Source: Candidatus Saccharimonadota bacterium (GTDB taxonomy: Bacteria; Patescibacteriota; Saccharimonadia; Saccharimonadales; Saccharimonadaceae). Taken from it: a DNA stretch of 47,757 nucleotides. Made by a program: the position numbers and the translations under genes. Within the stretch, counting starts at the first letter, position 1, and every line of letters starts with the position of its first letter. Positions 14,155 to 18,898 of the stretch are shown in pieces. The notes under the pieces were generated by a model. It was not told the origin of the DNA. It saw only the letters and a program-made list of their open reading frames with translations, and made no database searches. The DNA is taken from the NCBI GenBank assembly GCA_009787015.1, contig WRGU01000050.1, positions 1 through 47,757 on the forward strand, written 5' to 3'.

Positions 14155-17100
14155 TTATAGGCAAATCGGGTCGAATTCCAACTTCGCTTCTTCGCTGACT
14201 AAAATTTCTTTTGTCAATCCACTTTCAACGAGTTCATTTTTTAATTTCACAACCGGTTTATCTTTTTCGTCCTTGTATCCTTCGACTAATCGTGAGCAAA
14301 ATTCTTTATCTGTTTTCGATTTATCTTTCAAATATCCGCGAATTGCAATATTAAACGCCGCTTGCGCGTCGGCATCGCAAACTTGATCACAATCGGGATT
14401 AGAGCAAACAAATAATGCGATTGAACTTTCGTTTTCTTTTCTAAATTCCGCAAATTCTTCCGCTGTGAGCTTATTCCTGATCGCTTCGGGTAAATCATCG
14501 TATTCCGTCGTTGCCAAATTCGGACGACATTTAGCGTAAAAATTTTCGTCCTCATTCAACCAATTATCCGCCACAGTCCTACATTTTGTACAAAAGCGCG
14601 ATGTCCACGCAGCGGTCGTTTCAAAACCGTAAACCTTGCCGTACTCTTCCTTTAATTTTGCCCAAAGTGGCGAGTTTTTATCCAGTTCCTGCGGTTTTTT
14701 GATTTCACCCCAAGCCTGTTTATTTTCTACCGTGTTTTCGTCGCGACGAATTGAGCCGCGCTTGACCGAATCGTAAACTTTTGCTTTTGCCACGCGCGAA
14801 CCGCCCGTTTCAAACACTGATACTTCGTATTCAAACGATAACCGCGCGTGCTTCGCGAGCGCTAAACTTTCCAGCTGATTTTTGAATGAACCAATCAAAC
14901 TTTCGCGCAACCGCGCCAATTTCGTGTCCATAGAGCCAAAAGTTTGCCTCACCTGATTTTCGCGCCACGATTTGACATATTTTTTGACCGTTTGTTGTTG
15001 CGGATCAACGATAAATCCGTTCTCAATTTGCGTAATTCTCGCGGGGTTTTGCATGTCGTCAACCTCAATCAAACTCCACGCCAAATTATATTCGCCGAGA
15101 TCCACGCCGATATAACGGTTTTTGATTTTCGCCGCATCGAACAATTTCGTTTTCGGCGGGACGAGCGTAAATGGTTGCGAAATGAACACACGCGGATCAG
15201 AAGTTGAAGCCACCTTCGGTTTTTCATCGCTCCAATCTATTTTGACCGATTGTTCGGTGATCGAAAATGCGCCGTTCAATTCCAATATCGTTTTTTTCTT
15301 TTTATTTTTTCCCAAAAACCAATCAAGAAACTGCACTTGATATTTAGAACTGGCGACTTTTAGTGCCGTAAATTCGTTGTTTTTGTTCGACGTTGTCATT
15401 TCTTTCGCGGAGAAATCGTAAACCTGATCGGCGGAAATTTTATCGTTCGTTTCAAATCTTTCCGTTTGTAGCGCGTAAAAATATTTGTCGTTTGCGGTCA
15501 AAAAATTCATCTGCGCGCCGTTAACCGCCTGCACCGCCGAGCGCGCGATGAATTCGCGTTTAGAAATTAACGCCGAATAACCATGCAAATTACTGTGCGA
15601 CAAAACCGTTTTGCGCTGCTTTTCTCTGTCGCAATTTACCAACTTCGCCGACAAAATGGTTTTGGAGAGTTGCACAACATCGCGTAATAAATTTTCTTGT
15701 TCGGGTTTTTCACTGACTTTTTGATAAAGTTCGCCCAAATTCGCAACTTCCAACAACTGCGAAATCTTAATGCGATTGAATTTAATATACTCATTTTTAC
15801 CCGATTTCATTTTGCCGTCGTTCGTCAAGAGATTTTTCAAATCGGTCGCGCGATTAAACCCGCTTAAATAATAAAAATTACGCACGCGTCCGTCCTTACC
15901 CGCACGTCGATCCACAAAATTCAACTCCAATTCGTCCTGAATTTTCGTCAGGACTTCTTTTACATTTTGATCGGATTCTTTATCTTCGTTTAGGCGGTTA
16001 TATAAGTTCGCTAATTGGTCGATTTGTTTGTCGGTAATTTCGCCGTCGTCAAAATCCTCGACCAGCACGTCCGTTAAATTCGCAATTTCCGCGCGGATTT
16101 TTGGTTTTAATTCCACCAAATCGCGCCACAATTGGCGTTTATTTTCACCGAAAAATAACGGTGAACTTTGAATGTGTTTGCTCAAATTCAGCTGCCAATT
16201 TGGTGGTAATTTTGGCGCGTCGGCGGAATATTTTTGTGTCTTTCCGTCCTTGAATCGTTGCATAAATTCGTTCAAATCAGTTTTTAGCGTCGCCAAATAA
16301 CTTTCTAGTTCATTGGTAAATTCGCGTGTGATATTCGCCGATTTTTCACCGTCAATATAGTCAATAGTTTCGCGCAAAATGCCTTCACGAATGTCGCAAT
16401 TCATCGGCAGATCTTCATAAATTTCACCGGCTAATTCACGTAAAGTTTTCAGTTGTTCAATCGTCGCCAATTGTTTCGCATCGCGGTTGGAATACCAACT
16501 TTCAATCGTACCGTTGAAATCACTGCGATAATCTTTCCAATTTCTGATTAAACTCGGTGCTTTTGGAATTTGTTCGGCGCACTTTTTTAATTCATTTAGT
16601 CGCTCGCAAATAGTCGCAATTTGATCGTCAGAAAAATCAAAAATTGCGCGCAAATTCTCAACTTTTTCATTCCAATTCTCGCTACACAGGGTCGTAAAGA
16701 ATTCACCGAACAATCCGTTGTTCATATGGTTACCGTTTTCACCGATCGCGATAAACTTTTTCGCCGTCGCATCGCCAACTTTTTCTTTCCAATATTTAAT
16801 AATCGCGTCCAACAAATCGGTTCGGTCAGCGATGTCAAACGGCGTAAATTCAGGGTGAATTGTCCAGTTTATCGGCGCGGTTTCAGGAATTTTGATATCA
16901 AGTTCCGCCGCGTTAATACCAAAAATTTCTAACTTATTATCCGTATTATTTTGCGTTCCCGCGCCACACAATTCCAACCATTTTCTCGCAATTTCGTTCG
17001 CTGCATCATCAACGTTGTCAAATAAATCGGTGATTTTGCGCGCTAAACTTGCTTGTGTTCCAGACGCAGGACGCACCGGCGTGTCCAGCCACTTGACCCA

Positions 17101-17541
17101 CTTTTTCTTATCTAATCTTTGCGCCAAATTATATTCGATTTCGCCAAAATATTTTTCTTGCCAACTCTCGATTTTTAAAAAATCCTTGTATTCCAGTTCG
17201 CATTTATTACTCAAAATAAAACCGAGATTTATCGCCTTAATCCAAAGATCCAGAAAGTTCGGCGTATCGGGATTTTCCAAATAATCATTAAAATTCAGTG
17301 CGCCATACAGGTGTTCGTAATCGCGTTCGATCGCGTCGAAAACTTGCGCTTGTAAACCCGTGCCACGACCCAAATTATCGCGCGTCGCGTCGGTATTCAA
17401 TAATTCGTATTTGATCGTGCGCATCGAACCTTCGCCACCCGAATATGCAATCCGCTCGTCGTGCAACCGATAACCGCGTTTGCCGTTTTTGCGCTTCTCG
17501 TTTTTTCGTAAATTTCTGTCAAACTTTGGTTTGCGCAACAT
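14155..17541 (-). CDS. cas12d: Type V-D CRISPR effector nuclease Cas12d (CasY)
   Basis: 1,128 residues, within the usual 1,100-1,300. The N-terminus 'GYRLHDERIAYSG' (23-35) and 'DYEHLYGALNFNDY' (74-87) closely resemble the first described CasY proteins. A split RuvC domain lies in the C-terminal third: RuvC-I 'YIGVDLGEYNLAW' (Asp814), RuvC-II 'LSFEYEVSVFETGG' (Glu904) and RuvC-III 'CDADAQAAFNIA' (Asp1058); a zinc-ribbon is formed by CTKC (about 980) and CSNPDC (about 1045). All catalytic residues are intact. Family members cut double-stranded DNA guided by a crRNA and a scoutRNA. A perfect AAGGAG site fixes the start. cas1 is divergent, 304 nt away. No array, cas2 or cas4 is present. Confidence 0.92.
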   Translation of the reverse strand: MLRKPKFDRNLRKNEKRKNGKRGYRLHDERIAYSGGEGSMRTIKYELLNTDATRDNLGRGTGLQAQVFDAIERDYEHLYGALNFNDYLENPDTPNFLDLWIKAINLGFILSNKCELEYKDFLKIESWQEKYFGEIEYNLAQRLDKKKWVKWLDTPVRPASGTQASLARKITDLFDNVDDAANEIARKWLELCGAGTQNNTDNKLEIFGINAAELDIKIPETAPINWTIHPEFTPFDIADRTDLLDAIIKYWKEKVGDATAKKFIAIGENGNHMNNGLFGEFFTTLCSENWNEKVENLRAIFDFSDDQIATICERLNELKKCAEQIPKAPSLIRNWKDYRSDFNGTIESWYSNRDAKQLATIEQLKTLRELAGEIYEDLPMNCDIREGILRETIDYIDGEKSANITREFTNELESYLATLKTDLNEFMQRFKDGKTQKYSADAPKLPPNWQLNLSKHIQSSPLFFGENKRQLWRDLVELKPKIRAEIANLTDVLVEDFDDGEITDKQIDQLANLYNRLNEDKESDQNVKEVLTKIQDELELNFVDRRAGKDGRVRNFYYLSGFNRATDLKNLLTNDGKMKSGKNEYIKFNRIKISQLLEVANLGELYQKVSEKPEQENLLRDVVQLSKTILSAKLVNCDREKQRKTVLSHSNLHGYSALISKREFIARSAVQAVNGAQMNFLTANDKYFYALQTERFETNDKISADQVYDFSAKEMTTSNKNNEFTALKVASSKYQVQFLDWFLGKNKKKKTILELNGAFSITEQSVKIDWSDEKPKVASTSDPRVFISQPFTLVPPKTKLFDAAKIKNRYIGVDLGEYNLAWSLIEVDDMQNPARITQIENGFIVDPQQQTVKKYVKSWRENQVRQTFGSMDTKLARLRESLIGSFKNQLESLALAKHARLSFEYEVSVFETGGSRVAKAKVYDSVKRGSIRRDENTVENKQAWGEIKKPQELDKNSPLWAKLKEEYGKVYGFETTAAWTSRFCTKCRTVADNWLNEDENFYAKCRPNLATTEYDDLPEAIRNKLTAEEFAEFRKENESSIALFVCSNPDCDQVCDADAQAAFNIAIRGYLKDKSKTDKEFCSRLVEGYKDEKDKPVVKLKNELVESGLTKEILVSEEAKLEFDPICL

Positions 17542-17583
17542 ATTACTCCTTTTCTTAAATTAAAAAGCACATTTATATTCCGT

Positions 17584-17790
17584 TATAATAGAGGACAAGT
17601 TTTTTGAAAACTTGACTTGATGAGAAAGACTAATCCTGTTTCTTTCGACAGGATAGAACTATCAAGATTTTTATAGAGAAGTGCGGATTTTGCGCTCGTC
17701 AAGGCGACACCTTGCCGAGCGACCGTTCAATGAATTGATCGGACGCGAGGCAAAGGTCTTTACTCCTCTATTTTATGAGGAGATCCCTCT
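17584..17790 (+). ncRNA. Candidate scoutRNA region between cas12d and cas1
   Basis: A consensus TATAAT (17584-17589) predicts a plus-strand RNA starting near 17595. It would fold into successive hairpins: 17596-17603 with 17607-17614; 17633-17639 with 17648-17654 (loop TTCTTTCG); 17693-17704 with 17710-17721 (11 bp, loop CGACA); a weaker one about 17723-17743; and CTCCTC/GAGGAG (about 17763-17782). The sequence is not repeated, so it is not a CRISPR array. Type V-C and V-D systems need a scoutRNA with only a few nucleotides of repeat complementarity, which makes this the natural candidate; the exact ends and orientation are inferred. It fills the gene-free gap 17542-17845. Confidence 0.6.
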
Positions 17791-17845
17791 AAGATAACAG
17801 ATTATAAATGTGCAATTAACTATAAAATAGTGTATCATATAATAT

Positions 17846-18898
17846 ATGAAATACAAGGGTTTACGACAATTTGGCACACAAAAGCATTCTTTACCACCGA
17901 AAACCACCGCGCGGCGCGTGCCACTGTGGTTGCCGTATTTACAGGAAATTCGCAAAGTTAAGGGTGATGTTTTCAATTTTTCCTATAACGGCGGTGAGGT
18001 CGAATCGTCGCTGTCTGAAATCCAATCTATTATGATTTACGGCGACAGCGACACGTCACTCAACGTTTCAACGATCGACCAAATTGTCCGCGCCGGCGTT
18101 CCCATTATAATTCATCGCCGTAATATTACGCAACCGATTTACATTTTTGGTGGGGAGCGTCCTGATCTTGATGATACAATTTCCGCACAAATTCGTATTC
18201 GTGATAAAAAACGTTCGTCGTCGCACGTCGCACGACAATTAATAGCTACAAAAATGAAAAGTATGAGTTGGTTGGTCGATCCGTTGCCATTGCCGATGTT
18301 TGCGTCAGTTGACGCGTTGCGCAACATTGAGGCGAAACATGCGAAAAAATATTGGCATGAGTTTTTTACAAGGTTGGGATACCCCGAATGGACGCGACGC
18401 GACAAAAATCCAGCGGCGGTCGCATTAGATGCGCATAGTAAATTCATCACAGGGATTATTTTGCGTTGGTGCACATATCATCACCTGTCCCCTTATCACG
18501 GTTTTCTACACGTTACGACCGATTATCCGTCGTTGGTCTATGATTTATTTGAACCATATCGTGGCATCTTTGAGCAGAAATTATTAGAAGAATGGGTGCG
18601 CGGTGGTGTAAATCCAAAGAATTATCTCGGCAGTGCGATTTCAATCGACAAAGAATTCCTTGACGATAAATGTTACGTGCCGTTGACGCGCCAAATTGTC
18701 ACGCATCAAGAACTCCTGCACGGGATAGTTTTGTCACTGAAATATTATTGTTTAGGACGACAGCACAGGTTTTTAATCCCGATGCCAGGCAAACCAAATG
18801 GCGGGCGTCCGCCGAAAGTTGAGTTTTTATTATATGGTCGCCACGCAGGAAAGACTGATTTTTGGAAAGTAGCAAATGAAGTATCAAAAAGGAAATAG
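17846..18898 (+). CDS. cas1: CRISPR adaptation integrase Cas1 (type V-D)
   Basis: 350 residues. Catalytic residues sit in the expected motifs: Glu162 in 'RNIEAKHAKKYW', His222 in 'YHGFLHV' and Glu236 (with Asp233) in 'YDLFEPYR'. An N-terminal beta domain (about 1-110) precedes the helical catalytic domain. Cas1 cuts and joins DNA ends to insert spacers at the leader end of an array. Type V-C/V-D loci typically carry cas1 without cas2 or cas4, as here. It is transcribed away from cas12d; a TATCAT or TATAAT-like box lies immediately upstream, so initiation is probably leaderless. uvrB follows 37 nt later with its own promoter. Confidence 0.88.
   Translation: MKYKGLRQFGTQKHSLPPKTTARRVPLWLPYLQEIRKVKGDVFNFSYNGGEVESSLSEIQSIMIYGDSDTSLNVSTIDQIVRAGVPIIIHRRNITQPIYIFGGERPDLDDTISAQIRIRDKKRSSSHVARQLIATKMKSMSWLVDPLPLPMFASVDALRNIEAKHAKKYWHEFFTRLGYPEWTRRDKNPAAVALDAHSKFITGIILRWCTYHHLSPYHGFLHVTTDYPSLVYDLFEPYRGIFEQKLLEEWVRGGVNPKNYLGSAISIDKEFLDDKCYVPLTRQIVTHQELLHGIVLSLKYYCLGRQHRFLIPMPGKPNGGRPPKVEFLLYGRHAGKTDFWKVANEVSKRK

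Follow-up and report, generated by a model that had tools for sequence, protein, structure and literature searches.

Which RNA is encoded between the divergent cas12d and cas1 genes of this Candidatus Saccharimonadota genome, on which strand, and how could it be made beside a CRISPR array that holds no spacer? The window, that is, the whole stretch of 47,757 nucleotides analysed here, is one whole contig (C50) of an 858-kb genome assembled in 51 contigs (95% complete). Published lists of scoutRNA systems include type V-D (PMC7889808, PMC11127173), the scoutRNA being named for a short dock (3-5 nt) that pairs with the crRNA anchor (PMC9522604), and reviews list the production of Cas12d crRNA and scoutRNA as unknown or unconfirmed (PMC11127173, PMC7889808). 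The earlier note had taken the entire interval for a scoutRNA on the plus strand, driven by a TATAAT box. A scoutRNA is very probably present there, though its strand, promoter and boundaries were wrongly assigned. The interval is flanked by two genes:

14155-17541, minus strand: cas12d, 1128 aa, 940 bits against NF033951 (cut-off 250)
17846-18898, plus strand: cas1, PF01867, catalytic residues E162, H218 and D233 kept

Comparison of invariant columns demonstrated that Cas12d keeps the RuvC residues D814, E904, and D1058. Its zinc-ribbon region is shortened: residues ~985-1050, between two CxxC pairs, are a shorter unrelated replacement, and profile positions 1051-1105 are unmatched. Cas1 aligns at 72% identity with Cas1 of the related locus L006 and scores 68.6 bits against TIGR00287, slightly below the 71.7 cut-off. 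Judged by their open frames and kept catalytic residues, both proteins look intact. A PDB sequence search yielded no Cas12d structure, and no Cas12d relatives were found in the viral contigs searched. The genome has an RNase III gene, and cas2 is not beside cas1. A Cas12d above the curated cut-off and an adjoining cas1 agree with type V-D; the array of repeats and short spacers expected of this type is represented by one repeat and zero spacers, so that we file it under V-D cas loci with an empty array rather than under complete V-D systems.

Several elements described in the earlier note were recovered. The interval has no gene-sized ORF; TATAAT is present at 17584-17589, CTTTAC at 17758-17763, a long stem at 17693-17704/17710-17721 (11 of 12 pairs), and, in the plus-strand reading, the hairpin ATCCTGT-TTCTTTCG-ACAGGAT at 17633-17654. 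The structure is stable far above chance, with a z of -5.5 for 17590-17800 and of -10.5 (plus) or -11.2 (minus) for 17560-17820, where none of 200 shuffles was equally stable. No Rfam family matched the stretch between cas12d and cas1 at threshold.

To interpret these elements we compared the window with seven other V-D loci. Three related Cas12d loci come from records titled Candidatus Nomurabacteria, and loci L013, L009, L010, and L011 belong to other families of the phylum. In L006, L007, and L008 the layout is that of the window, with cas1 and cas12d divergent and the array between them. Their repeats read CCTCGAAAAATAGAGGGGAAAAGGC or CCTCGTAAAATAGAGGAGAAAAGGC; together with L013 they have arrays of 25-nt repeats with a period of 43-44, and in L006, a related MAG, the array is assembled with ~18 units. 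Cas12d of the window is only 35% identical to that of its genus mate L008, and the array-scoutRNA region is 79% and the leader 88% identical; by these alignments the effector and the RNA seem to have separate histories, apparently through reshuffling.

This comparison revealed one CRISPR repeat in the window:

17756-17780, minus strand: single 25-nt repeat CCTCATAAAATAGAGGAGTAAAGAC, 22 of 25 positions identical to the L007/L008 repeats, no spacer
17756-17761, minus strand: crRNA anchor AAAGAC at the repeat end (AAAGGC in relatives)

The repeat forms the last hairpin of the interval (-9.0 kcal/mol). A repeat search within the window found no array, and in the whole genome no second copy of the repeat was detected at up to 2 mismatches of its 18-base core. 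The statement that the interval has no repeats thus holds inside the window alone; 17756-17780 is recognisable as a repeat via the relatives. CTTTAC, proposed as a pairing partner of the repeat end, is GTAAAG of the repeat itself read on the opposite strand; belonging to the repeat, it is no anti-repeat. On the minus strand CCTCATAAAATAGAGGAGTAAAGAC at 17780-17756 is followed by CTTTGCCTCGCG, and the last L008 repeat by CTTTGTCTCGCG. Comparison of these minus-strand readings shows that the window has a leader, one repeat, and next the post-array sequence of L008.

Downstream of the repeat, toward cas12d, lie the candidate scoutRNA and its dock:

17615-17667, minus strand: scoutRNA core, 53 nt, with outer stem CTTGAT/ATCAAG, AGTTC, inner hairpin ATCCTGT/ACAGGAT, and dock
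17625-17630, minus strand: scoutRNA dock GTCTTT, complementary to the anchor AAAGAC (GCCTTT in relatives)

A covariance model was built from L006 and L008 only, because aligning all eight cores with MAFFT gave structural misalignments. Its best match in the window is 17667-17615 on the minus strand (35 bits, E 1.3e-6; the next has E 0.28). The model did not reach the distant loci, for which a sequence-structure descriptor was used. Eight V-D loci have a common plan on the cas12d strand, in the stretch from array to cas12d: TTYC, a hairpin, and (T)TGCCTT or TAGCCTT, mostly within an outer stem. The strict descriptor places this motif at the homologous position in the window and in six of the seven other loci, with any match at all in 31 of 2000 shuffled intergenics; L009, which it missed, is built alike but with a 4-bp stem. 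GCCTT, the dock, is complementary to AAGGC at the repeat end, and dock and repeat match each other in all six loci whose repeat is known, over five bases in some of them and 6 bp in the window. In particular, GTCTTT/AAAGAC of the window differs from GCCTTT/AAAGGC of the relatives by matched changes, C to T in the dock and G to A in the anchor. This is one event, with a chance of ~1 in 18 given one substitution in each. The duplex energy of the six-base dock alone does not differ from that of shuffles. Another candidate for proof of an anti-repeat, the duplex energy of repeat versus tail, was rejected, being not significant in most loci and giving its best opposite-strand matches in the window on a ribosome binding site.

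Given its place between repeat and cas12d, its short complementarity to the repeat, and a fold common to other V-D loci, segment 17667-17615 is, with high probability, a V-D scoutRNA on the minus strand. It occupies a part of the interval previously assigned to it. The earlier note had also asked whether the interval might be conserved only as a leader of cas1; conservation was found to track the array-scoutRNA unit upstream of cas12d.

The array end next to the scoutRNA varies among the loci. The last repeat before the scoutRNA in L006 (6826-6852) and L013 (~7650) is decayed exactly at the 3' anchor end. L009 (4500-4723, minus strand) has the array end and scoutRNA overlapping, as AAAGGG of the last repeat doubles as the 5' strand of the outer scoutRNA stem. 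The scoutRNA of L011 (400-556) is located immediately upstream of cas12d, has no adjacent array on the contig, is preceded by an extended -10 box TGGTATAAT facing cas12d, and is closed by an unrelated GC-rich stem, GCCCGGGG/CCCCGGGC.

The covariance model alone separates the strands poorly, because its reverse complement fits nearly as well. The strand assignment is based on four other comparisons. The dock GCCTT (GTCTT in the window) is on the cas12d strand in 8/8 loci; the inner stem has G-U pairs in L006 and L008 that favour the minus strand; the closing duplex described below is stronger on the minus than on the plus strand in 5/5 loci; and its broken pairs number 8 on the minus versus 14 on the plus strand. 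A scoutRNA transcribed on the plus strand from the TATAAT at 17584 would have in its favour the TTAAAA-18-TATAAT promoter match (10/12), one of three promoter-like sites found against 1.4 +/- 1.3 in shuffles, and a fold nearly equal to that of the minus strand (z -10.5 vs -11.2; core -14.2 vs -13.7 kcal/mol). However, the conserved motif on the plus strand is AAAGRC, which has the sense of the repeat itself and so is unable to pair with the crRNA; the repeat-complementary dock lies at 17630-17625 on the minus strand, which also carries cas12d and the repeat. The TATAAT, moreover, falls within an inverted leader copy, L006, L007, L008, and L013 do not conserve it (TATTCT, TATTTT, and TGTTTT at its place in the first three), and the promoter-like box of L011 faces cas12d. 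By dock sense and conservation we rejected the plus-strand scoutRNA, which is very unlikely.

The minus-strand scoutRNA and the repeat are enclosed by inverted arms, absent from the earlier note, that close the whole structure in the most stable fold:

17834-17839, minus strand: TATGAT, resembling a -10 box, upstream of the leader arm and shared by L006, L007, and L008; weak, no conserved -35
17785-17813, minus strand: leader, forming the 5' arm of the closing helix, with 88% identity to that of genus mate G006; pairs with 17567-17595
17567-17595, minus strand: 3' arm of the closing helix, between scoutRNA and cas12d, -33.4 kcal/mol with 17785-17813; TATAAT on the other strand

The helix comprises 29 bp in the window (leader 17813-17785 with 3' arm 17595-17567) and was found in 5/5 testable loci, the window, L006, L007, L008, and L013, at -28 to -34 kcal/mol (z of -4.9, -3.9, -3.2, -4.6, and -2.6 for the five loci against shuffled flanks). 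The MFE folds of all five whole units contain 26-31 pairs of the helix, over distances of 214-971 nt from the first repeat to the end of the 3' arm. The L013 arms have little sequence in common with the others, yet their cognate pairing amounts to -28.4 kcal/mol versus -7.5 to -14.6 for non-cognate ones. Among the Nomurabacteria loci two helix pairs have changes on both sides.

These observations are consistent with two mechanisms. The arms may pair in the transcript and be cut by RNase III, an RNA-helix processing step to which we give about even chances. They might instead be paired DNA signals, either a pair of promoters facing inward or two sites for a single regulator that couples the expression of array and cas12d. 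Such signals would agree with the -10-like boxes in the arms, and binding sites, too, would change together within a locus as both arm copies do. The boxes are not conserved, however, and the complementarity spans 24-29 bp; wobble-type differences, 7 on the minus versus 2 on the plus strand, speak in the same direction and are only suggestive, and in L011 a GC-rich stem of unrelated sequence closes the scoutRNA. We regard paired DNA signals as somewhat unlikely. With the RNA helix, a single long transcript that it closes seems to carry both array and scoutRNA. This co-transcription is not universal, because in L011 a separate promoter-like box precedes the scoutRNA and no array adjoins it.

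Between the repeat and the scoutRNA lies a further structured segment:

17671-17755, minus strand: two-hairpin module of 85 nt with alternative pairings, from repeat to scoutRNA
17673-17682, minus strand: possible second anti-repeat ACTTCTCTAT, 10 bp to ATAGAGGAGT of the repeat

The module is common to the window and L008 (346-433), loosely to L007, and is absent from L006 and L013; its fold z is -2.9 in the window, -3.5 in L008, and -1.1 in L007. The segment CGCTCGGCA..AAGG can pair with upstream CCTTTGYCTCGCG or downstream GCCTTTGACGAGCG, forming mutually exclusive, attenuator-like hairpins in the window and L008. Identification of ACTTCTCTAT as a second anti-repeat is suggestive only (p 0.096 in the window, 0.012 in L007).

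Some Cas-regulating RNAs have a single-repeat layout, which the single repeat beside cas12d resembles, and the repeat with its following sequence could accordingly be read as a built-in guide repressing the cas genes. A pseudo-spacer partly matching a cas promoter, the hallmark of such RNAs, was not found: the would-be guide CTTTGCCTCGCGTCCGAT has no other match in the window at up to 3 mismatches, and a 14-nt part of it matches no more than expected by chance. The sequence after the repeat is, instead, a hairpin that L008 also keeps, following a normal array. A self-targeting guide was rejected for want of a match in the window, and we consider the built-in repressor highly improbable.

The array without a spacer could be naive or stripped of its memory, or it could reflect an assembly collapse; since it has no spacer, the system itself would be naive or deprived of its memory. 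A dying relic, whose array has decayed to one degenerate repeat in a dead system, is conceivable in view of the absent spacers, the 3/25 repeat positions that differ from relatives, the shortened zinc-ribbon region of Cas12d, and the terminal repeats of L006 and L013 that decay at the same end. Against it, the Cas12d and Cas1 frames are open with their catalytic residues, and the stems of repeat and scoutRNA, the dock match, and the closing helix all persist; we judge it unlikely. Cas1 and the single repeat would still permit new spacers, and new repeat copies would carry the AAAGAC that matches the scoutRNA.

We thus describe a V-D non-coding unit composed of leader, one repeat, small hairpin module, scoutRNA, and 3' arm, all on the minus strand toward cas12d. 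At ~250 nt it is small enough for one transcript. Transcription would start upstream of the leader arm and run through the repeat, or repeats, and the scoutRNA toward cas12d; the unit would be closed by a helix of ~25-29 bp between leader and 3' arm, an RNase III substrate, whose cleavage would release the RNA of array and scoutRNA from the cas12d mRNA. By pairing with the six terminal bases of the crRNA repeat, the scoutRNA dock would then provide the guide scaffold of Cas12d. The repeat, scoutRNA core, matched anchor and dock, and closing complementarity of this scheme come from comparison of loci, and from these sequences we infer the start, the RNase III cut, and the function of the empty array.

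The unit resembles the V-D and V-C scoutRNAs (PMC7889808, PMC9522604) in having, beside the array and cas12d, a non-coding RNA with a stem-loop fold and short complementarity to the crRNA repeat 3' end. It differs from them in its dock, GTCTTT rather than GCCTTT with a matching repeat, in its place after a single repeat, in a possible second, longer anti-repeat, and in being enclosed with the array by a leader-trailer helix. In the Cas12c2 tracrRNA/scoutRNA structure (PMC9522604) guide-adjacent crRNA bases likewise pair with a short dock and there is further repeat:anti-repeat pairing; that effector belongs to another family, and has three repeat:anti-repeat helices and an X-junction, whereas at most two helices are predicted here. 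The Roizmanbacteria CasY systems (PMC6509639) are also Cas12d systems of candidate phyla bacteria, with arrays that hold many spacers, unlike the window array, which holds none.

As an outcome of these comparisons we tentatively propose that V-D array and scoutRNA form one RNA domain, whose conserved leader-trailer helix would act like the processing stem of rRNA precursors, and that this genome may carry its minimal spacer-free form, ready for a first spacer. The leader-trailer helices of rRNA precursors are cut by RNase III; there, as here, long complementary flanks enclose a structured RNA for release, the enclosed RNA here being a CRISPR array and scoutRNA and the cut a presumed one. No description of a spacer-free, helix-closed unit was found in the literature searched; the founding scoutRNA paper, reportedly that of Harrington et al. 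(2020, Mol Cell) on V-D (Cas12d/CasY) and V-C, was outside that search. Concrete parts to mutate are available in the closing helix and in the scoutRNA core, which can be aligned and has a compensated dock, and an empty, apparently intact V-D locus with cas1 and no cas2 beside it would be a natural substrate for first-spacer acquisition.
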